This document shows, in pieces, positions 46,817 through 64,000 of a DNA stretch of 64,000 nucleotides. The stretch covers positions 33,931 to 97,930 of the forward strand of contig JAJKFJ010022716.1 of NCBI GenBank assembly GCA_027382625.1. Reading direction: 5' to 3'. The DNA comes from Tetmemena sp. SeJ-2015 (lineage: Eukaryota > Ciliophora > Spirotrichea > Sporadotrichida > Oxytrichidae). The translations under genes and the position numbers were made by a program. Under the pieces are notes generated by a model. It had not been told where the DNA came from, did no database searches, and saw nothing but the letters and a program-made list of their open reading frames with translations. The number at the start of each line of letters is the position of its first letter. The first letter of the stretch is position 1.

Positions 46817-47698
46817 TGTGAGTGGAAATAGATAAGTTCATAAGGACAAGGAAGGTGCTATAGTCTGAAACTAAAGCTTTGCAAGCATTTGAAGTGCAAG
46901 TGAAGCACAGGCGCTTGCAACTTGACGAGCAGGAGAAACTTATAGCTTCCAATGAGGAGCAAATGAAACAAGATAGGATTAAGAGTTAACAAATGATGGC
47001 CATGAGACCTGCCAATGATCCTAGGAGAGTTAGAGCTATTAATAAGTTTTAATTTAAATTTCTATTTTACTAAGCTCATTAGGATGACGATGATGAGCAG
47101 GCATTGCAAGCAATATACGATGTAGACGGCGCTATTAGGAACTTCAATCACAACAACGGTAGAAATGTGCAAAGTGCTGCCAAGGAGAATGTGCTCAAGC
47201 AATCAAACTACAACTCAAAGAAGAAGAACAAGGATATTGACTTTGAGTTTAAAAGCAATTTTAGTGTCTGATTTAATAAGACGTGGAGGATGCAGATGAA
47301 AACGATAGTGGAATTGACATGTCAGGGGATGAGTCAAACCACACTGAGGTAGACAGACACACCAATCTCTCGGACACCATGTAGAGCAAACAGATTACTA
47401 ACCACCTGCGCGATTCTCAAAACCAACAGCAGTTAAAGTAGCAACAGCCTAAACAGGGATAGGCTCAGAGCAGGCCAAGTGATGTCCCGTCTCAGCAGTC
47501 AAACATTAAACAGCATTAAGATATAAATGATTATTTTATATAGTTAGCAAGAGGGTCCCAAGAGTGACCATAAGAGCGGAGTTAAAAACCATAACTCACA
47601 ATATTTCAAGTTTAAAATTTATTTTAATTTCACCAGGCCCCGATGACGATGAGGAAGAAGAGCAGGATGGAGAGGAAGAGGAATGGGAAGAGTATTGA
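46817..47698 (+). CDS. Acidic, Gln-rich hypothetical protein
   Basis: Plus strand, stop TGA 47696-47698. A coiled-coil N-terminus (RRLQLDEQEKLIASNEEQMK) is followed, after an AT-rich insertion at about 47045-47085, by DDDDEQALQAIYDVDGAIRN, then DVEDADENDSGIDMSGDESN, a Gln-rich stretch (QNQQQLKQQQPKQGQAQS) and an acidic tail (DDDEEEEQDGEEEEWEEY). Further IESs lie near 47260-47285, 47530-47555 and 47600-47640. The start codon is not evident; it may lie in a separate MDS. No family recognised. Confidence 0.6.
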
Positions 47699-48025
47699 AT
47701 ATCCTACTAAATATAAAATTTCAATTTATGAGCTTATAACTCTTGCCATTATAACATAAAATATTTCCCATATTAAGTCAATTTTATTTCCCTGTTTTTA
47801 GATTGGCCATTAAGAAATTATAGATACAAAATATTTATTAAGATTAAAAAATACTAATTTAAAACATGTTTTGAGGATCATAAATATATTTTATATAAAT
47901 GAAGTCAAAATTGTAATTTATAATTATCATAAGATTTAAAATTTCATATTGTTAGGGAAAAATAAAGGGAAGTTAAAATTAAATAAACTGAATCTTTGAA
48001 ATTTTTTTGAAGCAAATTATTTCGG
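47699..48025. other. AT-rich spacer
   Basis: About 330 bp of very AT-rich DNA; no gene, repeat or RNA recognised. Confidence 0.6.
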
Positions 48026-50767
48026 ATGGAAAGCCTCAGAAAAAAGAAAAATACAGTGAAGATATAATTCTACTATGGAGCTTAGAGAGGACACCCTAAA
48101 TGCAAATACTATGAGACTGAGCTGCTTAAATTTTAATATATGATCTTAGTCACAAACAAGCATCTCTTTGCCCCAATCTTAGTAACACCTCTGCCTACAG
48201 ACGGCTCTGTACCTGATCAGATAGGCTTTAACTTTCTTCCTCTCTATCATTTAAATTTTATGAAATATGTTAAAGGAATTTATATTTATTAAAGAAATTG
48301 AATTTAGATATCTTGAAATTAAAATTAGTAAATATTTGTGATATATCAAGATACTTAGAATGATAGTGGCGATGAAAAATCCCTGAAATTTAAAGTCGAA
48401 ATGGAACGAAATGTAAGGGACATATTTTATGCTTTCATCAATAAATAGTAAGTAAAGAAAAGTAAAATTTAGGGAATATAAATAATAATCATTTTCAAAA
48501 CCAGCACTTATTCAGTACTAGTTAATAAATCGTATTACTATCCTATGTAACATCAATAAATAAAAAATTGTCTCTGTCCTACTACTACTATTAAACGTAT
48601 TTTAAGAGTAAGTGAAATTTTATTTATCAATTTTAATTCATTAACCATGAAAAATACAAAACTTATGAAGTTTTGAGTTATAAATTACATTTTAAGGACT
48701 CCTACGACAGTGATAGCCAAGAAGAGGATGATTTTTAAGTCTAAGGCTACAACTAGAAATGCTACTACTACGAATCCGAAAGCAGTGAAGAAGAGGAAGA
48801 GAAATTTATATTATATTTAGAGAAGATAAGCAAAGAGTGGAACACTAAAACATTTTCCTCAAGATTCAAACAACCAAATAATTATTAAAAAAAATATCAT
48901 AAAAATATTACCAAAAAAGAAACCAAATTAGAATTTGATTACTTTTTAAGCAAGTTCATAATATAAACTATTTTAATAGAACCGACAAGGGATCATAATC
49001 CTCCTAACATAATACAAGAAAGCTTTATAGTAATTTAATTTAGCGCTACTGTATTTGCTAAACTGATTAGTTATCTCACTCTAGACAAAGGGGAGCAAAA
49101 AGAAAAGATTTTAGAGTAATTCACTATCCAAGAAATTAAAACTCTCGAAAGGCTTTTGAAGGAAAATAAATTGCAAACTAACTTCAAGCATCTCAACAAT
49201 ATTTATAAATTATGAATTATCTTAGTTATTACAATTAATATAGCTGAAAGTTACCTCGAGGGTAAAAAGTTGCTTGTTCTCTTTAACGTTAATGTATATA
49301 TCTTAATGGCACTCTCATGCTGAGAACAAAATCCAAGATTCCTTGCGATAGGTATCCAGACTTCGTTAAAAATAAAAGGTTCCACTACTACAGGCCTTAC
49401 ATTGATGAAAAAATAATTATGTTTTTTAATTTGAGTAAATGAATTTCTAATATTCTCAAGCACCCGAGAGTGACTTTCGCTATATACTCTTCTATTACTC
49501 ACCGTAATATAGAGATTGTAATTTTTATTTAGCCAATCATTGACTTAGTATTTGGAAGGTCTAAACTGGCTCCATATGCGGACAAGTTGACAAGGATCTT
49601 CGATTAAGATTACAATCGAAATTTAAATATATTTAAGTTTTTATAATTAAAGATTTCAATAAGCCAGATCCACAAAAAGATGAGCCTTGGGAGACAAAGC
49701 GATCACTTGAACTTATATTTGCAAGTGAAGATATCTCATTAACCAAATGTTTTATTTTAATAGGATATCATCTTGAATAGTACTTTATTAATTAAGTATT
49801 TGGGGAAGGAATTTTCACGATGATTTAATAGATATTAAAATATGAAGAATTTAAATATCGAGGAGGAGGGCTTTGGTTTTTAAAATACGCTTATAATAGA
49901 TTGCGAACCTAGGAAGGTGAGGGACTACCCCCTTAACTCAGTCATCATACCAGAATACACTGAATTTAATTTTGCAATATTTTTAAAATTAAAAGGGGTT
50001 TAATTTAAGGCCTTACTTAACTATCTATTGTTTGAATACAATGCTAAAACCTTCATTTTTAAAATATCTGCTTTATAGGCTTTTTTTTATTATTACATAA
50101 TAGGAATAGGATATTTTATTTTGCTTTTTCTTTATTTAACATTTAAAGTTATTAAGAATAATTCTCAAAACATTATTTTAAAATTGACCATTTTTTCCTT
50201 GTAAAAATTAACATTTCCTTAACCAATTGATCTATATATTTTTATGAAAGTGACCTTAAAAATGGGAGCAAAGATAAAAGCACAGGAATTCTAAAAAATC
50301 TTGGAAATTATCTACAATAATTATTTGACAACTGTGGAGATGACATCCAACAATATCTCAAATAGAATCCACAAAATATAAAAAATTAAACTTAATTCCT
50401 TTGCTATTATCCAGAGTATACTATCTAAAATTAACCTACACAAAAGGTTGCAAAATTAATTATGTATAAATAAATTGCAGCTCAGAAAGTTTTCGCTAGT
50501 AATTGGAGGACATTTTAATAAATAGACCAACAACCAAAGAAACAAAGTACATAAGTTTAAGTCCAAAGTTAGTATGGTTGGGATGCCTAAAAATATATGA
50601 TACCTGATTATAATTTATAATTTTCTTTAAAATTATAAAGTTAAAATTAAAAAAATAAAATTAAAAAATATAAATAGAGGTTTTAGCCAATTCTTTAATA
50701 GCTAAAATTATAAATGCTCTAAATATTATTTAATAACTTTAAATATAAAAAATTAAAAAGCGATTGA
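48026..50767 (+). CDS. AT-rich acidic hypothetical protein
   Basis: ATG at 48026 (MESLRKKKNTVKIQFYYGAQ) opens a series of plus-strand blocks: GHPKCKYYETELLKF, SGDEKSLKFKVEMERNVRDI, an acidic stretch DSYDSDSQEEDDFQ, a 170-codon open run including FIVIQFSATVFAKLISYLTL and LEQFTIQEIKTLERLLKENK, FNKPDPQKDEPWETKRSLEL, and a C-terminal NLGNYLQQLFDNCGDDIQQY. Base composition is far more AT-rich than other genes here, with heavy use of AAA, AAT and TAA/TAG glutamines. Five or more frame changes indicate IESs. It may be an ordinary gene of low expression or a decaying germline copy. The last in-frame TGA is at 50765-50767. No domain recognised. Confidence 0.5.
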
Positions 50768-50779
50768 GTTTATCTCGCT

Positions 50780-52192
50780 ATGAGTTCCCATAGTGCTTCA
50801 AACCCTAACCTGGACGATTCATTCTCCAGTTAGAACAACAGCTCCGTCAATAATTCAGTTTACAGTTCCCAGAAAGGCAGCTAACACGGCCTGTCAAGGA
50901 ACTAAACAAAAACTATCAGATGGAAAGCTGAACATACTCTGAGAAACCTTCTTCAGAGACTAGACAAAATGATTGAGCACATCCAATCGGAGAGAAACTA
51001 TAGACTCCCCATTAAATACCAAATCCTAGAAACAATATACTAGGAAACCTGGAACTCCTTAATCAAAGAACCCATTCCCGAGCTAGCAGCAATGCTAATG
51101 ATTATCTCGGAAGATAGGACTTTCGTAGATGAATACATCATTGAAAACGAAGCCTAATCGTTCTTTATGGGTGCTATCTGGAAAATCGCCATAGTGACTA
51201 ACATTAGCTTGAAATTCCACGAACGGGACAAAATCCAAACCATTAGAGAGGCGGACCCATCCACCACAATCTAATCCAAAGGTAACCTAATCATAGCACC
51301 TCAACCTACCATGAGAGAAACCTAAACCTAAACGGAATATGATGAATGGATCAGACGAAGAGCAAAACAGAATGCTTCCGCAAAGAAACCTGATCCTAAA
51401 CCTCCACTATCAAATAGGACCTCATCCTCATAGGTAGTACCCCCCCCTAGGTAATAACAGAAAACACGACAAAATTAAAATCTTATTAAAGTGGATCCAA
51501 TTAAACCTTAGTAATTAAATATCAATATCCAAGTATAAAATTAAGGTTCCAAACCTAAGGGAAATATTAATAATTAATAATAAACCAAACAAATCCACTA
51601 ACCTAAAAGACATCAACCAAGAATGGATGTTAGGATGAAAGAACCTCCTAGAGGAAGAGCAATGCCCAGAAGTGACTGGGAAAGATACTTAGTTTAGGTG
51701 GAAGATGTAATCCACGTTGAATTCAAATTTGGAAACTCCACATCGTACGATGATGCCACTAGACAAGGTGGCACCCTGAACAACAACCTCATCCAAATAT
51801 GCAACAAAGCTAAACAGACAGTTGACATTTGGGATGATATGGCCTTCAAAGGCAAATTCTTCAGATAGGATGATCACACCATGACAATCCAAGCCTCGCT
51901 AAGAGTAGCGGACGGCTTTGGATTCAGAATACTACAGCTTATCAATAAGGATCTCCACAAAAACTTCTCCACAGGAGCCCAAGCGGGCCTTCTTAAATAC
52001 AGAACTAGAATATAATCTAACAAATTCCTCAACAAGGTTGGGGAAAACAAAGATGGAGAAATACTTGTCTCAAACAAACCCAGAAGAAATGGAAGAAGAA
52101 ACTCTGGAAGAAGACCAAGATCCAACGGACCCAGAAACAAACAGAGAAGACCCAACAACAAGGAAGACAAAAGAGAAGACTACAGAAAGTGA
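50780..52192 (+). CDS. Uninterrupted 470-aa ORF, possible germline-limited or transposon gene
   Basis: A single frame with ATG 50780-50782 and TGA 52190-52192 runs 471 codons without any IES, in contrast to its neighbours. N-terminus Ser/Asn-rich (MSSHSASNPNLDDSFSSQNN), then a helical domain (WKAEHTLRNLLQRLDKMIEH; LIKEPIPELAAMLMIISEDR), a Pro/Gln linker, a second folded region (RYLVQVEDVIHVEFKFGNST; GFGFRILQLINKDLHKNF) and a strongly basic Arg/Asn/Gly C-terminus (RRNGRRNSGRRPRSNG) likely to bind nucleic acid. Codon choice is richer in C (AAC, CCC, TCC, GAC). The architecture is Gag/ORF1-like, which is inference; no reverse transcriptase or transposase lies alongside. A long TTA repeat follows within 130 bp. 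Confidence 0.75.
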
Positions 52193-52317
52193 ATGCTTGA
52201 GTGATTAGTTTAAACCATACTTAGAGTTAACACAGAAGTGAGCTTGATGTCTAATTTATTATTATTAACACGGAATGATGTTAATAATGCTTTATTATAT
52301 TATTATATTATATTCAT

Positions 52318-53037
<720 letters not shown>

Positions 53038-53040
53038 AAA

Positions 53041-54371
53041 ATGCTCTTCCATTTTTAAATTTTTATATAATATTTTTTAAATAAAAATGAGCTATACTTT
53101 TGAAGAAATTTTGTTGCAATTTTTTAAACAATAATTATTTATTACATTTGGAATAGCTAAAAATTCTAAAATTGTTTATTTATGTTAATTAATATTGAAT
53201 ATCTATATTTAACTTGGAGGATAAAAAAGTATTATGCTTTTTTAGAAATAATAATCTCTATAGGTTTGATTAGTGAGATTATTCTCTATAAAGTTAAGCA
53301 CGCTTTAATCTACTTCTATAATTAAATATTTTAGAAAATTAGTAGCCCACTATTTTAAGACCATGCATTCTCAAACTTATTATCTTTTAATACTGAGTGC
53401 TTTAGTGTAATTTAAATAATTTTATTTTAAATATTTTAATGGCAGCTTTTCACAGAGCTTATCTTTAGTTATTCAGCATTTAAGGCAAATATTAGTTAAC
53501 TCTTTAAATTATCAACTCAAAATTGTATTTCTCTATTTTTAATTTAGCAATATTTAAACTGGATCTAAAAGCCGATCTAAGTATCGGTACAACAACAGCA
53601 ATAATAACGACGAAAATTGGGCCTCCACTAACTTAATGCCTCTCACTTCTCATAAAGATTTCTATTCTATTTATAAGTAAAATTATTTATTAAAATAAAG
53701 GGTAATTAAAATTAAAACTTCTGATTAAAAATTAAGACTACAAACTAGGAAAAATCTCCGAATAAAGATTGGAAATATTCACTGTTTACCATTTAAAATT
53801 AAATCATATTAGGAAAACTAATTAAGTATTTTTAAATTGCAATATTCTCTATGTTATTTTAGTCAATATATGATAAAGATTCTTGTTGCTTTAAATTGCA
53901 CTTTTAAAATATAGATAAAAACAATTTTAAATATGCGCAACTCAAAACTTTTGGTTGCATTAATACTTAATTTTAAATCATTATATGTTTAAATTATTTG
54001 ATTTCGATGCTAGCAGATAAAAGCTAGCCAGTTCTAAGGCAGACAGTTTTAAACTCAGTAAAATCAACTTCCACGAGCAATTTAGTTTTTCTCGTATTTT
54101 TTTCAAGAGCCTCAAAAGAGCACAGTCAATAAAAAATATTTATAATTTCATATACTTTCAACAAACATTTATAAAATTAAATTCAAATGTAGAAACTCTA
54201 AAACCTTTTCGTATTTTATAATCCATATTGAGATATTTTAACTAAAATTTGAGTTGTATTTTGTATAATAAAAGATAACTGAGTGAGCATAATACCTAGT
54301 AATATTCTGAGTAATTTAGCTCTCCTCACTATAACCCCATCCCTAACAAATATAATATCTCAATTAAATTG
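53041..54371. other. AT-rich stretch with one likely coding block
   Basis: Mostly AT-rich. A plus-strand block at about 53555-53690 (SKSRSKYRYNNSNNNDENWA, STNLMPLTSHKDFYSIYK) reads as protein under the ciliate code. It could be an MDS of the cyclin gene or of the upstream gene. Nothing else is supported. Confidence 0.45.
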
Positions 54372-57300
54372 ATGGATGATCAGAGGAGGAAAACTGTAAA
54401 CAACTAAGGAGTGACTGCTACTAACTTCATGCGCAGGAGAAAGGAGCAGCAGCAGACTCAGCCATCAGAGAAAAGAAATAGCCTTTTTAAACCCCACAGC
54501 AAACCCAGAGAACTAGATCTTGAGAGTATAAACATATAATTGAATATTTAAGTTAGGGCACTAACAATTAAACTAACTCCACTTTTAATGATTCCAAATT
54601 TTCATCCAACATTCACATATATGCTAATTTTTAATTACAGATCATCCCCTGAGAGAAAAGGCTCCTCTAAGCTTAATATAGTTTAATAGGCCAGAGCTGA
54701 AAGTGCACTATCTGACGCACTGCAGAAATCTTACTCAAAAGGAAACTAAATCCTCCAACATCTCATATAAATTACCAAAATAATTTTAAATCAAATTAAT
54801 TGCTCTCGGTTGTTCATTTAACTCTCACTCAAACTATCAAAATTCACAAGGCAGCAATCATAGATAAATGTAAATATTTGAGCAATAATTCGCTCTTGCC
54901 ACCCTATCCTCGCAAAAGTCATAATGTACTCCTTGCCGACTAGAATAGATTCCCTAACAGCGGCTCCTAAAATATAAATTATTTATCTTCTTCATTGCTA
55001 TATAAATATGGATACCCTTTTAACTCCGGACGGAGTCAATAACGGGATTCCTCAAATTTTATTAAAAAACCTAACTTATATTTAAATTAGGCACAAGTCT
55101 TACCTCCAAACCCCCAAATCTAAAATCAGCACTTTCAAAGTTGTGCAAAGCAAGAGAGCTAAACCTAAGTCGCTCGAACAAGTGATTGTAGACCTTATGA
55201 CTACTGACTATAAAGTAAAATCGGGCCCTGAGTCCCCCACCGCACGTGCGGTACCGGATCCGCACGTGAGGTACCAGCACCGCACGAGAACCCGGGACCG
55301 CACATACTTTAAAAAAATTTGGTGGTTTTGGGCATTAGCTTCACCCCCAAATGTTTCAAACCCCCTTTTCCCAAAGTTTTTAAGCAGCCCTTAAATTTTC
55401 CCGGCCCAAAATTTAATAAAAAAGCAAAATACATTATTGAGGGAAAAAAGCTTATATCTTAGATTGTGACGCGGTACCAAATTCGGTTTGGGTTTGAGAG
55501 GAGATCAAAAGCATTTATTCAATATTCTAAAAGCTTTGGTTTAATCCTAAGGAGGCTATATATTATAGTAATTCGGCTTAGAATAGTGAAATGTAATTTA
55601 TTGAAGGATAAACAGGTTTTCTAAGTTGAGAAGAACAATTATAAAAATCCAAAAGATACTAACTACTTACCACTAGGTGTAATAATTATGTTTAAATATT
55701 GCGACGGTATGTTTTTTTTTAATACTATTTTGTTGTCTCTTTGATAGTATTTTGTGCTCGACCACTTGTATTATTCTGATGTTACCTGGCATCTGAGAGT
55801 TTCAGGATATATACTAGGAGGACTAGGTCTTTTTTCGCCTCTAATACTAACACTCAACCATAAAGGCTTTCATGCTTATCGTTATCTACTCACAGTTACG
55901 GAGTTTAATGAGGTTGCCATAGAAGGACCGCTTGAGTTTTTTAGTCCTCACGGGTATCCCACGGCCCTTGCGAGTCGCAGCTACTGGACATATTTTTTTC
56001 ACTGGGGAGAGGTTTTAATGTTTCCGGGAAAAACTTTCGGGGGTTCTCTCTTTAAAATCCGTTTAAATTTAAAAAAATTCAAAAAAAATTTCAAAAGTCA
56101 ATCTTTTAAAGGAGAATTGATAAAGAAATTTGTGGAGTTAATCTTCTTGTTTAGAAATTATTTATGCAAAACTATGTTCCTTTTTTTAATAATTCAAATT
56201 ATTTTATAGGGTTTTAAAAAATTTTAATGGGTCGCTTAACTCAACTCAATCTGATATTTAAAGCCATTATTTAAGCGTTTTACATTTAAATATGGTTGAG
56301 ATTAAATTAAAATTAGGGGTTTTGATTAAAATAATAAATTTAAGGAGGTCAACCCTTTTTGGCATTTTTTAAAACATAAAATTTAATCCCTGATTTTTTA
56401 GCTTGTTCGATGCCCCATCGAAAAATTTTAAAAAGTTTTTTCTTTCTCATCTCAAAAACCAACATTACCCGAGAGATTTTATACTTAAAAAAGTTACGAA
56501 TTTATTCCATTTTTAAATTTTAATTTTCTTATTTCATTTTCTTTTTAATTTTAAATTCTTTAGTTTTTTACCATTTTTTTAATAAAAAAAAACATTTTAT
56601 AAATTTTTTTTTTTTAAAATTTTTACTTAATTTTAAATTTTTTAAAAAAGGAAAAAAAATGGGAGAATAACTTTCGAAAATTGGGAAAAAGCAACATTTT
56701 TAAATTTTGAGCATAAATTCACTAATTATTACATACGTTTTCCCAAAAAAAAAACCCAAAAAAAAAACTCCAATTTGTTAGAATAAAATTTTTAAAACTT
56801 ATTTTTTAAAAAAAAGCCTAGCTAACTTTAAATTTGCTCCCTTTAAATGTTTTAAATTTCCAAAAACCTTTGCTAGTGTTGATTCCCATTTGCACCCCTT
56901 TTTTTAAATAGGCCTTTCCCTTTTGAGATTTATTTGAGGAAGAATTGACTTGAATTTTTGGGCCCGGGGAAAATACCAAAAAAAAGAGAAAAAATAAAAG
57001 AATGATAGAAACTAAAGGAATGTTTTATTTTAAAGAGAGAGAGAGAGTTGAGCAAAAATTTTGTTTTTTAGTTTAAAAAAAAATTTTAAAATTAAAAACC
57101 AACCCCTCTATTATTCCTCCCGGGAAATTTTGTTTACTAATGCTTTAAAATTACTCTATTTTGTTTTATTTTTCTAAAATTAAAAGATTAGTTTTCATTA
57201 TTTTTGTATACTCAAAACCCCTTTAATTTAATAAAGTTTCTAGTCATCAACTGAAAAAAAAAACAATTTTTGAGGGATTGGATACTTTTTTAGTATTTTA

Positions 57301-60034
57301 TTATAAAATTCCCAAAGCTTTTTGGGGGAAACATAAAAAATCCCTTATTAATAAAAGATTTTATAAAATTTGAATATTTAAGTTAATAATACATTGTTTT
57401 ACCCTCAGTGTTTAATTTTAGATTTTATATCTTATGATTGCTCTTTGTAGTCTCTAAAAATAAAGGGAATTAAAGGGCTCCCGGCATATAAAAGATATAC
57501 AAAGACGCAACAGCCAAGGCCTTTGCGTCTTTGTCTACCAGCCGAATAGGGAACTAATCATGTGGCACCTCCGCTACCTCACACTCTGCGCAGAAGCCCC
57601 CATCCAGCTTATGCGTATCTTCAAAAAATAGCCTAAAAGGTTAAAAAATAAAATAGAGTAGCGTCGATCCGAGAGCCTGACTCTCTCCAGCTGCATGACT
57701 AAGTGTATGCCCATAGATTATGTCCATTCATGCCTATAAGGATCAGGAGGATGAACGGGAGACTACTCACCTTTCATTAACTCTCAAATAAGCTGCTACG
57801 ATCACATTCTCCTCATGGCTTAGGCTTCCTTAATATCTTGCCGCATTTAAGCACTCACTTTCTAGCCAACGAAGTACCAAATCTGAGAGCCTTGAAGGAA
57901 TGGGCGACCGGTGCCTAGTGCGAGTCGGATGCGTACTTAAATTAACTTTCTAATAAAATACTTGCTATACAAATAATATTAAGAGATCTTTGATAACTCC
58001 TTAATTATATAAGAAATAAAACTTGAAGATAAGTTTAAATAGCAAATCTTCAGAGTTTCTGCACAATAAGCCTTACAACTAATTTTCTCATTCGGATTAA
58101 ATAATTTATCATCTCTAAGTGATAAATTCAACTTGGCACGGTTTAAGTATTAGTCACCTACTCTTCCAAATCATCCCAAGCGAATTTGGTACCGCTCACA
58201 AGTCTAAGATATAAGCTTTCCATCATAGTGTATTTTGCTTATTATTAAATTTGGGCCAGAATATTTAAGGCTGCTTAAGCTTTGAAGAGCATTTGAAACA
58301 TGGCGGTGCAAGCTAATGCAACACCACCAAATTTTTAAAGTATGTGCGGTCCCGGGTTCTCGTGCGGTGCTGGTACCTCACGTGCGGATCCGGTACCGCA
58401 CGTGCGGTGGGGGACTCAGGGCCCGTAAAATCTTACTTTCCGCCCTCCTCTAAAATTTCAGACTTATTGTTTTTATTTGACGAGGCTCAGTAATAAATCA
58501 CAGAGGAAGATTCCTCGGAGTTTGAGGAATAATTTTAAATTTTCATTATAAATTGTCTTTCGGAAAGCTTCACCACTGGTTTAACTAAAGTAACTTTGAA
58601 AATAACTAATGAATTAGAATTAAATTTTGTATTAACTTTTTTGCCCACGGCTAAATATGACCAGACCATAAAGAGCAAATAAAGTTCAGTAAATATTTTT
58701 TAAATTAAGAGATATTTAAATAAGGTTTAAGATATCGAAACTTCCTACCAATCCTTTGGAATTCCTCCTAAATATAGAGCCAAGCATATAAAAAAAATAT
58801 GTTGTATGCCTTTGTATATTTTTAGCTAATAGACTGGTATGTTTAGGTGTTCAGGGTTTTTAAAAAGAGCCAAGATAAAACTTTCTTCCAAGCAGTTAGT
58901 CTCTTGGACAGGTATGTGGTTTAAAGCGTAGATATTTTGAATTGTAATCTATACTTTAATATCGTTTTTCGTTTTGAATGATCCTGAAAAATCGGTAGAA
59001 GAAGGATAGGAAGAGATAGACTTCCACTTAGCGGGCTTGACTTGCCTCTGGATCAGCTCTAAGCTCGAAGATGTCAAGCCTATTTTCATGCGTCAGTTAC
59101 TTAAGGATGCATTTTTATTTATGCGGGCCATGGTAAATTAGATTTACTTTATATTGGAGCAGCATATTTATATTACTATGAATGAATACTCTCAGCAGCA
59201 AGTGTTGGATATGGAGTTGAGAATATATAAAGTGCTCCGATGGAGGGTCAACGAGATCACTCCCTATGAGGCAACCATGATCAATCTCAAAAAATTTCTC
59301 TTTGTCGATCTCAAAGTCAAATATCTAATAAATATGTTTAGTGAGCTTTCGAATATTGTAACAAATTGGATGAAGAACAAACGATAGAAGTTGAGAATAT
59401 CATAACTGCTTTGTGCTACGCAAGCGCCATTAATTTGAAGATTTCAGCAGTCAATAAGGAGGTTATGAGCTGCGCTTTGATTAATTTAGGACTATAGCTG
59501 CTAGCATAGAAATATTCATCTCCCTCACCACCATCTAAAGAGGAATAAATCACTGGCCTAACAACAAGTAAATTAGTTATACATATTCATTTATACTTTA
59601 AACAGAGAGTAAAGCCAATTTAAAAAGCAAAGATGCTGAATCTCAAACTCTATAGCTCAATAAGGTTAAAGCTGCGATGAAAAAATTCGCTTGGGACCTA
59701 AATATCACTCATTTAAAAATATATAATCCTTCATCATATAATTTAAATTTGTAAATAGTTAAAATTCCTCCCTTCCTCATACTGTGGAAAAGAAGATGAG
59801 TATAAATAGGAGTATTTTACTAATATTTAATATGAATGAGGGGAATAATAAATAATTTACTTAACTACTAGGGCAAATACAGACTGGGGAATAACCTCTA
59901 AATCTCTTTCCCACTACTCATCGAAATTCACGATCTCGCCCTCTCACTTAAAGAAAGCTAGTGAGCAACTTAGCCCAACAGATTAGCAAAATTAAACTGA
60001 AAGTCATTGTCCGAACACCTCTAATGATAATTGA
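54372..60034 (+). CDS. Cyclin, interrupted by IESs and a 3.2-kb transposon
   Basis: ATG at 54372 (MDDQRRKTVNNQGVTATNFM), TGA 60032-60034. A basic, Ser-rich N-terminal region of about 200 residues ends in SLEQVIVDLMTTDYKVKS, where the transposon is inserted, and resumes as YFPPSSKISDLLFLFDEAQQ. The cyclin box follows: LIDWYVQVFRVFKKSQDKTF, FQAVSLLDRYV, HLAGLTCLWISSKLEDVKPI, then YSQQQVLDMELRIYKVLRWR and TALCYASAINLKISA from the second fold. This matches the CDK-binding cyclin fold (A/B/E-like). The C-terminus is Ser-rich (WGITSKSLSHYSSKFTIS). At least seven ordinary IESs interrupt it (for example about 54540-54640, 54765-54870, 58530-58800, 58920-58985, 59115-59150). It should activate a CDK; the subclass cannot be fixed by eye. 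Confidence 0.85.
55754..56209 (+). CDS. Open frame inside the transposon, unknown
   Basis: 151 codons without any stop even by the standard code (ATG 55754): a hydrophobic start (VSGYILGGLGLFSPLILTLN), then ALASRSYWTYFFHWGEVLMF and a Lys/Phe-rich AT-coded tail. GC content over the first 300 bp is above the surroundings. It could be part of an element-encoded protein or captured sequence; the Lys-rich tail looks like read-through. No homology recognised. Confidence 0.3.
   Translation: MLDHLYYSDVTWHLRVSGYILGGLGLFSPLILTLNHKGFHAYRYLLTVTEFNEVAIEGPLEFFSPHGYPTALASRSYWTYFFHWGEVLMFPGKTFGGSLFKIRLNLKKFKKNFKSQSFKGELIKKFVELIFLFRNYLCKTMFLFLIIQIIL
57480..57935 (-). pseudogene. GC-richer coding-like island inside the transposon
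   Basis: About 450 bp with much higher GC than the surrounding element. The minus strand reads DTHKLDGGFCAECEVAEVPH, PIRLVDKDAKALAVASLY and, upstream in other frames, ERVRLSDRRYSILFF and TGRPFLQGSQIWYFVGQKVS. The frame changes several times. It may be a broken transposase or a captured gene fragment; the Cys pair (CAEC) could be part of a zinc motif. Unassigned. Confidence 0.35.
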
Positions 60035-60654
60035 AGGACACTAATATTGCTAAACTAGAAATATTGAAACATAGTATTTAAGTTATATATTGATTATGTA
60101 ATATTATCGTTCACAAAATCATAAAATAGAAAATATGAGGAAGTCCCTCTATATAGTATACAAATTGAATTTAGATAAATTTGTTAGCCTTGTAAATTAT
60201 ATAACTCAATATAATAAGAGGAGGAGTTATAAATCCTCATTAGTAAAGCAGCATCTAGGATTTTTATATATAATTCACATAATTTATTATAAATTTATCT
60301 TTATCTCCTATTTTTAGACCATTAGAAAAAGACTACCGAAAGATTGAGATATATAAATTTGGAAATGTAATTTGCAAATTTATGGAAATTAAATAGGACA
60401 CTATGATAAGCTGATTTCTCAAACCTCTCATCCTTGGCTGATAAAGAGAACTTGAAGAAACCTAGCTCCTTCATAGATAAACATATTCGCACAAAATCTA
60501 ATTGAATTACCATAAAAATTTCATTAGACTTTATATTATGGTGAGATTTGAGTTGGACTATCTGGCACACTGATGTTATAATTAGCTTAGAAAGAATTCA
60601 CTACTGCATCATTCAAATGTCATCAGTGCGAGAGAGGGTCCCTCTTCAAGTTAT
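60035..60654. other. AT-rich spacer with weak open frames
   Basis: Between the cyclin stop and the 60-aa protein gene. A minus-strand frame around 60430-60540 (FVRICLSMKELGFFKFSLSA) is open but unsupported by context. No repeat or RNA gene seen. Confidence 0.4.
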
Positions 60655-60837
60655 TCAGAGTTCACCTCTTGCGACCTTTCTGTCGAAGTCGATCTTGCCG
60701 AAGTACTTGTTGTAGGTAGTTCTAATCTGGTATTGTCTGACAGCTGCCAAGGTTCCACCCAATAGGATGTAGGCGTGAGCTGGCTTGTCAACGATGAAGT
60801 TGATCACCTTCTTCTAGAGAGCACCTCCTCCGGACAT
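60655..60837 (-). CDS. 60-aa one-helix membrane protein, highly expressed type
   Basis: Minus strand, ATG 60835-60837 (MSGGGALQKKVINFIVDKPA), TGA 60655-60657, no IES. One hydrophobic segment (HAYILLGGTLAAVRQYQI) is followed by a basic amphipathic tail (TTYNKYFGKIDFDRKVARGE). Codons are strongly C-ending (ATC, TTC, AAC, AAG, GTC), unlike neighbours, which suggests high expression. Size, single helix and composition resemble small inner-mitochondrial-membrane subunits of respiratory complexes or ATP synthase; this is inference. Confidence 0.75.
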
Positions 60838-60980
60838 TCTTTCTCTTAATTATTATTTATTAAAATTATAATTCTCAACCCCAACCTGCAAATAATTAAT
60901 CGCTCTACCTTTAAAATATTAGGTTTGATTAATCACTACTCACACACTCACAATATCATTTGAATATTAATCTTAGAGAC

Positions 60981-63451
60981 TCAGAATGAATTAGGTTGGC
61001 GAGAGCTCTAGCCAGCTCCCCCAATAGTGTCTTATTTTTTATCTGCTTCTTCTAGAATGTCTAAAAGCATATCATAGCACATGCTCTTTATTTGATTTAC
61101 TATTTCCACCTACTTAGATTTATCCGACACCAAAGATTGCAATTTAGAAGGAAGAGCATGTTAGTTCTTCTAAAAGTAAGGATTCATCAGCTGAACGATC
61201 TACTTATTTGAAAACTGGGACTGTGTTGAACTTGAAGGGATTGAAGTAGATTAAGTAGAGAGGTGCTTAGAATGATTCTAACTCGTCTGCTGAGAGGGGT
61301 TCAAAGGCTAAGCATAGGGCTAAAGCTATCTAAGCGGTAACATTCCAGAGGGACTATGATTTTGCCTGCTGAAGTTTTGAAGGGGACTCGGGGATCGCGA
61401 TCTCACAATATCTTCAGAATCAAATTTATAAGAGATAATAGACAAGATTTAATTATCAAACTAAGTTCTCTGTTCATACAATTTATGGAGAACAACTTTG
61501 CTCTTTTATATTTCTAGTCTAGCATTATTAAGCAAGTACTGCTGCAGTTTCTTATTTTCTATTTTTCTCTCTACAATAGTAACTATCTTCCAATGATTAA
61601 AGGAAACCTAGTGATGTCTAATTAAGGACTTCTGATTTATCTCTTTCAACCTAGTAAAGATCTTGAGGAATTTCATTTGCTCTCGATAGCTTTAGTCTTT
61701 TACCTTTGTCTCAGCTTAGAGAGCATACATTTCAGTATCTGTTTTCCAAATCCTAAGTGCTTCTCTTAAAGGCCCTGCTACTCTTTTCATAATAAGTATA
61801 AGAGCTTGACTGACTTATGCATTTTGCACCCTTATTGCTCTCTAATGGTCTGAATTTAAAGCATAAAAGTGCCCTCCATTAGTTTTGATGGTCTCTTGTA
61901 ACTACTGCTGATTGTCAAAATTCATGTTCTACTTGTTAGTGACCTACCTGTAATTAGATTATCTCCGAGAGGATAGATCGTTAATGTATTGGTTTTCATT
62001 TGCAAATTGAATGCTGTTTTCACTCTGAAGTCTCATGAGGCGTCCGAAGTCTTTATTAGGTGAGTGTAAGATTTGCTCAAACAGATCATACTGATAAGGA
62101 AGTTATTCCAAATCAGCTGATGGGTTGGTAAAGTTGTAATCTAATAGCAAAGCATTTAAACTTACTTAAATCCATGTTGCTAGTCCTACCCTTAGTCTTA
62201 TTATTTATCAACCCTTGCTTCTTCTAATTAGAGATAGTTTCTTGCTCATCTTCATCACATATGTTCTCAGTGTTAGAGCTCTGATTCAAAATCTGCTATC
62301 TGTAATCTTTAGATTACTGTCTGCGGTGGTTACTAAAATCTTAGTCACCTTCTTTGAAATTAATGTAGCTTTAGAGATACTTAGAAAATTGAATTCTCAT
62401 TTTCCAGTTCACAAAAGAATTGGCAAGTCTTCTTGATTTGTACCTAAAAAGGCAACCAATAGCCTTTCTCATTACAAGCTCTCTATCTCTTAGAAATTCA
62501 CTCTCGCTATGAGTAATAGAGTTGCTCTGCAATTCGTTTACCCATCTCGTCTAGGCTATAATCTAAACTGAGCTCCTTCTTGCGAGAGAAAAGAAACGCC
62601 ATCTCTCAAAGTAAGTCCTAGCTCTATCTTTATTATGATGCTTCATCCAAGAGAGAATCATTTACATCGCCCTACCTTACTTCATTAATTGATCAGAGAG
62701 CAAATAAGGAGTTGAATAATTTTACAGTTGCTATTGCAAGGCTTAAAAGGGATTAGATTAAACAGTGTTGGGCTTAACTGACTGAGATTATGATATGTTA
62801 AGAGGGTGGGAAATGTTGTTTAATTCATTTCTGAAGCTTTAATTAGTTAAATTCTATTGAAAGCTGGAATCATTTCCGAACTATAAAGTAGAATCCTCAT
62901 GAGGATAAGATTGGTCTTGACGATTAAGAGTCCCTAATTGTCTGTTTGATTTAGGTGGCTTTTAATTTTGATTGATAATTATATTTGCTAAAGAATCCTC
63001 TCCTTCATCTGGTTCTTGATGTTTCAACTGTGTTTTAGCTCTCTTTAAGCTGAGAGAAGACTGTTTATTCTTTGGCTATAATTTCCGAGTCTTGGATTTC
63101 TTCAGTCCAAGTTCATTACTTGAATTTTTCTTCTGTACCTTTAAATTAATCAAGTCCTATTACTACTAAGGCTAATTTATCATTGAATACCTTCCTCCAA
63201 AAGGACTTAGCTTCTGATTCGCTGCTTATTTTTTCTCCAGGCTTTTTTGGAATAGAACTTGAATTCCCTCATTGATTTTCATCTTTTCGCTCCCTTCTTC
63301 ACTCATTTAAGATGTGAGTCCCACATTTCTAGACTTTATTATGCTAGTTCTTTAGCTCGGCTAATTTGAATTCTCTCTCTTAGTAGACTTAGAAGCACGC
63401 TTTGAGCCCTTCAAGGATTTCTTCCCTTTCTTTTTTATTGTAGGAACCCAT
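60981..63451 (-). CDS. Long coiled-coil hypothetical protein
   Basis: Minus strand, ATG 63449-63451 (MGSYNKKEREEILEGLKACF, a possible N-myristoylation site), TGA 60981-60983. Blocks: FKLAELKNQHNKVQKCGTHI, EKISSESEAKSFWRKVFNDK, a Ser/Lys-rich middle, DRARTYFERWRFFSLARRSS, repeated W-containing helices (ALRIWKTDTEMYALQAETKV; RHHQVSFNHWKIVTIVERKI) and the C-terminus NKQIVQLMNPYFQKNQHALP ... DMLLDILEEADKK. The RxxFxxW and W-spaced helices resemble SFI1/centrin-binding-type repeats seen in basal-body proteins, which is inference. Several IESs (about 63310, 63270, 62150-62210, 61940). Confidence 0.65.
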
Positions 63452-63811
63452 TTGAAATGAAATTTTTATGAAATCAAATTAAATATACTATTTAATTTGG
63501 GAAAGTTAATTCTTCAAAAATATTGCTTACCTACCGCGGCTGAATAATCCTTTGATCAACAAAATATTAATCCTATATGTCCTGATCACAAATAATATTA
63601 GCCTCTGACTCTTAATATACTATAATATTGTACGATTAGAAAAGTTTGATCGCAGTTATGGAAAATAAATAAGAGCGATTTCGAGCTTATGCCCAATATT
63701 ATATAATTATTACCAATGCTTAAAACCCCAAAACCTGTGATTTTATATTCAGTGTAGTTATAGTGATTATTAGAGTGCTTGTACTTATATCTAATTAGGT
63801 CTTATGCATAT
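63452..63811. other. AT-rich spacer
   Basis: No supported gene; AT-rich sequence upstream of the coiled-coil gene. Confidence 0.5.
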
Positions 63812-64000
63812 ATGGCTCAAGCCTACATCATCATCCTATGCATGCATCACACGTAGCCTAAGCGTATAGTCTGCTCCCACTTCCTCATGCTGATCGTCCA
63901 CATCTGTCTGATCTCTGTCTCAGTCATCGCGCTCATGATCTCTCCGACTCTTTTCACCAGTTGCTGCCTACAAGCTCAACTCAGATGCATCTTACTTGTT
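63812..64000 (+). CDS. Partial hydrophobic ORF at window end
   Basis: An ATG at 63812 opens a frame to the end of the window without TGA: MAQAYIIILCMHHTQPKR, then two hydrophobic stretches (FLMLIVHICLISVSVIALMI). GC content rises sharply here. The minus strand also reads as hydrophilic protein over part of it (SRRDHERDD; TDVDDQHEEVGADYTLRLRV), so the strand is uncertain. Truncated by the window end. Confidence 0.35.

Follow-up and report, generated by a model that had tools for sequence, protein, structure and literature searches.

How a transposon insertion turns into an IES is the question raised by the locus described here. The idea that IESs originate from transposon insertions is an old one, and the transposon-derived cases known to us involve duplications of 2-4 bp and relatives of Tc1/mariner or piggyBac elements. 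At stake is whether the host removes any insertion that leaves a repeat behind, or only those of transposons matched to its own machinery. In Tetmemena sp. SeJ-2015, a transposon that is probably of a different superfamily sits inside the coding sequence of a cyclin. The window, by which we mean the whole 64,000-nucleotide stretch of contig JAJKFJ010022716.1 that was analysed, we take to be ciliate germline DNA in which TAA and TAG encode glutamine, given the long frames seen under code 6.

The element and its cyclin host

The element occupies positions 55223-58424 (3202 bp, GC 0.33) and lies within the cyclin reading frame, as the preliminary description of this DNA had proposed. It is bounded on both sides by an exact 8-bp target-site duplication, GTAAAATC, at 55215-55222 on the left and 58425-58432 on the right, again in agreement with that description; random 8-mers drawn from the two flanks matched by chance in 9 of 76350 cases (about 1.2e-4). 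Its terminal inverted repeats are perfect over 93 bp, the left one starting with GGGCCCTGAGTCCCCCACCGCACG (55223-55315, forward strand) and the right one reading on the opposite strand (58332-58424). A repeat finder matched the arms over 94 nt, of which 93 are within the element, and reported an inner arm pair with 82% complementarity. The outer 100 bp had been called nearly identical at the two ends; the ends do match, with the exact identity spanning 93 bp. Near each end are 20-bp tandem subterminal repeats, arranged around CCGCACGTG on the left (55239-55286, forward strand) and in mirror image on the right (58361-58409, reverse strand), which are likely to be transposase-binding sites.

The interior of the element is AT-rich. 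A Pfam scan of six long frames of the interior, translated with the ciliate code, detected no transposase domain and gave only matches below the curated cut-offs. One interior segment, 57455-57963, is a dispersed repeat that also matches loci without the rest of the element, with 73-76% identity at places where the remaining element gave no match; it is GC-richer than its surroundings and may be a nested or captured repeat. Across the whole window, Rfam gave no matches at gathering thresholds, a tRNA scan found none, and a search of a phage collection in near mode returned no matches.

The cyclin coding stretch to the left of the insertion (55089-55222, forward strand, code 6) is presumably destined for the macronucleus. 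Once the element and one copy of GTAAAATC are taken out, the flanks join as DYKVKSYFPPSSKISDLLFLFDEAQ in a single frame, in which the right-hand coding stretch (58433-58529, forward strand) carries on the frame of the left, and the joined frame runs through TTDYKVKSYFPPSSKISDLLFLFDEAQ. The element is thus bounded by direct repeats and its removal keeps the coding frame continuous, which gives the duplication the form of a pointer, as had been suggested. The accompanying expectation of an uninterrupted cyclin after deletion holds across the insertion site and fails farther downstream, where short AT-rich stretches break the frame of the window copy.

The two best-defined of these stretches are candidate short IESs. 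Deletion of a 41-bp segment with the pointer AGC (58783-58823, forward strand) restores the cyclin motif RAKLIDW, and a segment of 37 bp (58935-58971, forward strand) has a pointer, TTTTGAAT, that is also 8 bp long. A third removed stretch, 42 bp with TAACTTT, is less certain and is neutral with respect to frame. With all three deleted, the window yields one continuous cyclin product that matches Cyclin_N at 3.1e-17 with a score of 62.9 bits; taken separately, two of the pieces score 36.6 and 19.6 bits and the third has no match. The cyclin box lies in the downstream coding stretch (58980-59370, forward strand; Cyclin_N). Cyclins E1, B1 and A2 are the closest solved structures to the product, and a search for homologues in a large protein database gave 409 candidates, none of them at E<=0.001. 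Spliceosomal introns were also considered for the short interruptions and were rejected, since the two best-defined ones, when bounded so as to restore the protein, do not start with a 5' GT; they look like IESs instead.

A transposon family with Merlin-type ends

The outermost 22 bases of the element occur at 75 sites in the 146-Mb assembly when up to two mismatches are allowed (53 exact, 5 with one mismatch, 17 with two), and the reversed pattern, used as a control, occurs at none. Twenty-nine loci around such matches were combined with the window to give 30 sequences, 17 of which have paired ends in a 16-nt scan; exclusion of L024 as a duplicate of L022 leaves 16 two-ended elements. Exact 8-bp duplications flank 11 of these 16. 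The duplications of L019 and L026 are one base off and that of L033 two bases off, while L014 and L022 have no target duplication. In the 11 elements with exact duplications, agreement between the flanks peaks at 8 bp relative to neighbouring lengths.

The identical ends of the window copy had been read as a sign of either a recent insertion or a conserved excision sequence. The outermost 22 bp are exact at 53 of the 75 sites, which is what would be expected of a transposase-binding end. The perfect inverted stretch varies from 0 to 232 bp across the 16 two-ended copies; end identity alone is not diagnostic of a recent insertion, and the case for recency therefore depends on the empty second copy discussed below. 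Interiors related to that of the window element (the best 40 of 640 candidate matches) are mostly 70-87% identical over the longer matches, the best being a partial match of 93% on contig C2112, so the window copy is unlike a member of a very recent burst here.

Among the two-ended copies, a location in coding sequence has been established for the cyclin insertion only. Codon-usage scores computed at the 16 junctions include -0.3 for the window and +2.7 for L027, where random sites have a median of -1.8 and an upper quartile of 1.9, and the cyclin insertion does not stand out among them. The two-ended copy at L029 (3265-5434 of that locus) has an exact GTTATTTC duplication and appears to be flanked by coding stretches in different frames, perhaps placing it within a pre-existing IES; a search for an empty second germline copy of L029 found none, both matches being its own flanks. 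At L014, the frame to the right of the element (3770 onward) resembles the C-terminal part of what we take to be an EF2-like GTPase.

Several features point to the superfamily of these elements. Merlin transposons are characterised, in the accessible portion of a 2021 survey, by terminal inverted repeats of 24-462 bp, GG ends and duplications of 8 or 9 bp (PMC8101967). The window element, with perfect repeats of 93 bp that start with GGG and an exact 8-bp duplication, falls within these ranges. No DDE_Tnp_IS1595 domain was found in those of its long frames that were scanned, six in number, which makes it non-autonomous at best. A relative with the same terminus, L030 (4814 bp, flanked by an exact duplication of TATAACTC), has three degenerate stretches of coding sequence; joined, these match DDE_Tnp_IS1595 at E=4.6e-8, above the curated cut-off. 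Two of the three pieces were tried singly, one giving 0.041 and the other no match to the family, and by our reading the first acidic residue of the triad is absent from this copy. Joined related pieces from two more loci match the same family at 4.2e-9 (L039) and 1.6e-12 (L040). At L039, 5.5 kb of sequence beyond the left end did not contain a right end, and no terminus was seen at L040, either by eye in the first 600 bases or in a 3.8-kb self-comparison for inverted repeats. When the assembly was searched with the DDE_Tnp_IS1595 family itself, 14 matches reached E<=1 and 12 of these exceeded the cut-off; L030, L039 and L040 are not among them, their pieces having surfaced only with L030 as the query. 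Further Merlin-bearing loci lie on contigs C2013, C3534, C4005 and C1757.

On the strength of the L030 pieces, the GG ends and the 8-bp duplications, we assign the window element to the Merlin superfamily as a non-autonomous transposon, with moderate to high confidence. It seems improbable that it is instead a member of hAT or P, which also make duplications of 8 bp, and that the Merlin pieces of L030 are nested there. Such nesting would fit the degenerate state of these pieces, their presence in L030 only among the two-ended copies and the absence of a recognised transposase from the window element. Against it, a related terminus with many subterminal CCGCAC repeats also occurs at the second Merlin locus, L039, on one side and about 1.4 kb away from the Merlin pieces there, and the ends of the window element begin with GG, as described for Merlin (PMC8101967). 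Duplications made by hAT elements have the form nTnnnnAn; of the 11 exact duplications, a single one fits it. Two further classes do not describe the element. MITEs are short, a few hundred bp, and the window element has 3202 bp in a set of two-ended copies that spans 2170-4814 bp (n=16). TBEs have 3-bp ANT duplications and telomere-repeat termini, in place of which we find an 8-bp duplication and ends reading GGGCCCTGAGTCC.

An empty second germline copy and the proposed fate of the insertion

A protein search of the assembly identified a second copy of the cyclin on contig C972 (locus L038), the next best match being only 56% identical. At the insertion point L038 reads GACTATAAAGTAAAATCTTACTTTCC, with a single GTAAAATC and no element. 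The junction foreseen in the preliminary description was thus found, though in a second germline copy and not in the macronuclear nanochromosome that it had named. The C4A4 telomeric pattern, at 21 sites in 3 contigs of the assembly, is rarer than its reversed control (28 sites, 4 + 24) and so carries no information on the organism.

The C972 copy is colinear with the window, its identity being 95.1% on the upstream side of the insertion point and 93.5% on the downstream side, and it retains short IES-like interruptions of the cyclin; both features mark it as germline DNA and not as a somatic or processed copy. These interruptions measure 42, 29 and 42 bp in C972 and 41, 37 and 42 bp in the window, and the first two diverge clearly more between the copies than does the coding DNA. 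At the junction, the frame of C972 equals that reconstructed for the window, with one replacement close by. The same three removals leave the insertion-site part of C972 out of frame with its cyclin box, which implies at least one further interruption between the two; length differences occur in the alignment of the two copies near 58530-58540 and 58694-58800. A comparison over 231 + 546 bp of coding sequence found differences between the copies at 8 silent sites out of 157 and at 6 replacement sites out of 620 (pN/pS 0.19, p=0.0025), which argues that the cyclin was under selection during most of their separation. Four silent differences and one replacement fall in 55131-55178 and 58467-58517.

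Identity between C972 and the window varies along the locus, from 89-93% over 47000-50715 to 93-95% around the cyclin and 99% overall over 59400-63673, where the first 400 bases are lower. Judged from coordinates, C972 lacks about 2.3 kb relative to window positions 50715-54489. It may be either an allele or a recent duplicate of the window copy. Contig C5124 was considered as a second allele and set aside: it is 99% identical over 47000-52200, its homology ends at 52211, short of the insertion site, and its matches beyond that point are microsatellite only.

Other repeats were observed in the surrounding DNA. A repeat of about 105 bp at 48448-48551 has copies of 93-97% identity elsewhere and is apparently missing at the equivalent place in C972. 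A 474-aa frame at 50768-52192 has no Pfam match, and this region has no match in C972; the frame is multicopy: besides C5124 at 99%, some 20 places among the best 40 of 885 candidates carry it in part or in full, with DNA identities of 72-95%. Degenerate copies of it (66-73%) lie within a subfamily of GGGCCC elements (L031, L032, L033, L037), as if captured. Behind this gene, a (TTA)n array extends over about 740 bp (52292-53034) and is perhaps the tail of a retroelement; the homology to C5124 stops just ahead of the array. A dispersed repeat begins within 63427-63900 and has 38 further places at 82-99% identity among the best 40 of 136 candidates; several copies are 98-99% identical, and it was perhaps recently active.

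The overall explanation that we favour, with a probability of roughly 0.78, is the insertion of a Merlin element on one of two germline copies of the cyclin combined with its somatic deletion through a GTAAAATC pointer. Its insertion into the cyclin coding segment of one germline copy, with duplication of the 8-bp target, is directly seen or well supported; a transposase from another copy would have mobilised the non-autonomous element. With a chance near even, the element would be deleted from the new macronucleus together with other germline-limited DNA, the pair of GTAAAATC serving as the pointer for in-frame rejoining. We propose that the cutting would be done by the elimination machinery of the host, probably Tc1/mariner-type transposases, and not by the element itself, in which no transposase was recognised. 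DDE_3 (Tc1/mariner-type) domains are abundant in the assembly (150 of 150 scored, the best of 921 candidates, matched), as would fit a TBE-like host system; a search for piggyBac domains gave no matches, its control likewise matching nowhere. Guidance of rejoining by RNA is familiar from work on Oxytricha, and here RNA from the old macronucleus may guide the cutting, with the empty copy providing a contiguous template for exact rejoining.

With a second cyclin copy present, the cell is not obliged to excise the element and could tolerate a failed excision, and a tolerated null copy is the main rival to somatic excision. The inserted copy would then be a null allele or duplicate that undergoes no precise excision and makes no working cyclin, with C972 supplying the gene, a possibility that we take seriously without favouring it. 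It draws on the element-free second copy and on the L029 element, which apparently lies in non-coding gene DNA where precision is unneeded. The coding segments of the two copies differ mainly at silent sites, which speaks against a null copy, although a recent insertion would look the same; moreover, such ciliates as a rule remove their germline transposons, as described for Oxytricha (PMC3731211).

The empty site itself could have other origins. It is quite unlikely that the insertion is older than it appears and that C972 once carried the element and lost it from the germline, whether through gene conversion or by being precisely excised. The uneven identity along the locus (89-95% against 99%) indicates that recombination or conversion may have occurred, but conversion would require a third, empty copy, and the next cyclin in the assembly is the distant one noted above (56%). 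DNA transposons rarely leave the germline precisely, with a single copy of the duplication remaining. An assembly chimera is hardly credible: the draft state of the assembly, with 5213 contigs, is the only point for it, and the exact duplication, the perfect ends, the family of 16 distinct two-ended copies in the set of loci examined and the precise empty site on the independent contig C972 all stand against it.

A broader form of the somatic-deletion account is that Merlin elements are a live source of new IESs in a spirotrich-like ciliate, the host taking the 8-bp duplication as a pointer at once and removing the element in frame. We hold this tentatively, at somewhat less than an even chance. 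If it is true, the empty germline copy would preserve the 'invade' step of IES birth within one genome, and an 8-bp duplication would be accepted though the transposase that made it is unrelated to the Tc1/mariner and piggyBac systems. An insertion from another superfamily in coding DNA, for which one assembly provides both the empty site and dozens of related ends, offers a clean system in which to test whether the host removes any insertion with a usable repeat or only those of matched transposons.

Comparison with known systems

The element shares with Merlin (IS1595/IS1016-related) transposons its inverted repeats starting with GG, its 8-bp duplications and a relative bearing DDE_Tnp_IS1595 pieces. 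It differs in being a non-autonomous element of 3.2 kb with an AT-rich interior lacking a recognised transposase, in its GC-rich 20-bp subterminal repeats and in its placement in a ciliate coding segment. The 2021 survey, in the part available, reports Merlin matches in 24 of 33 ciliate genomes, with termini and duplications for few alveolate sequences (PMC8101967), and the accessible parts of the open-licence literature on Merlin and ciliates or Oxytricha yielded no report of a Merlin element inserted into coding sequence of a ciliate.

Oxytricha TBEs are likewise germline transposons in coding DNA, from which they are precisely removed at a duplicated target so that loss of the element and one duplication restores the frame, as set out in the portion of that study available (PMC3731211). 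They are Tc1/mariner elements with 3-bp ANT duplications and telomere-repeat ends, whereas the window element has an 8-bp duplication and GGGCCC ends and is known as germline sequence. In Blepharisma, the BogoMITEs and mobile IESs are also transposon-derived germline DNA, partly non-autonomous and reported within IESs; nine copies of a Tc1-type family there are reported to be IESs with boundaries at the transposon duplications, and the transposase domains of this genome include the Merlin type (PMC9942856, in the sections accessible). BogoMITEs are short, of pogo/Tigger type and flanked by TAA/TTA duplications, in contrast to a 3.2-kb element of Merlin type with an 8-bp duplication, seen in germline sequence alone. 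The kind of event is thus already known; the Tetmemena cyclin adds a transposon assigned to Merlin, a target site of 8 bp and a germline copy in which that site is empty.
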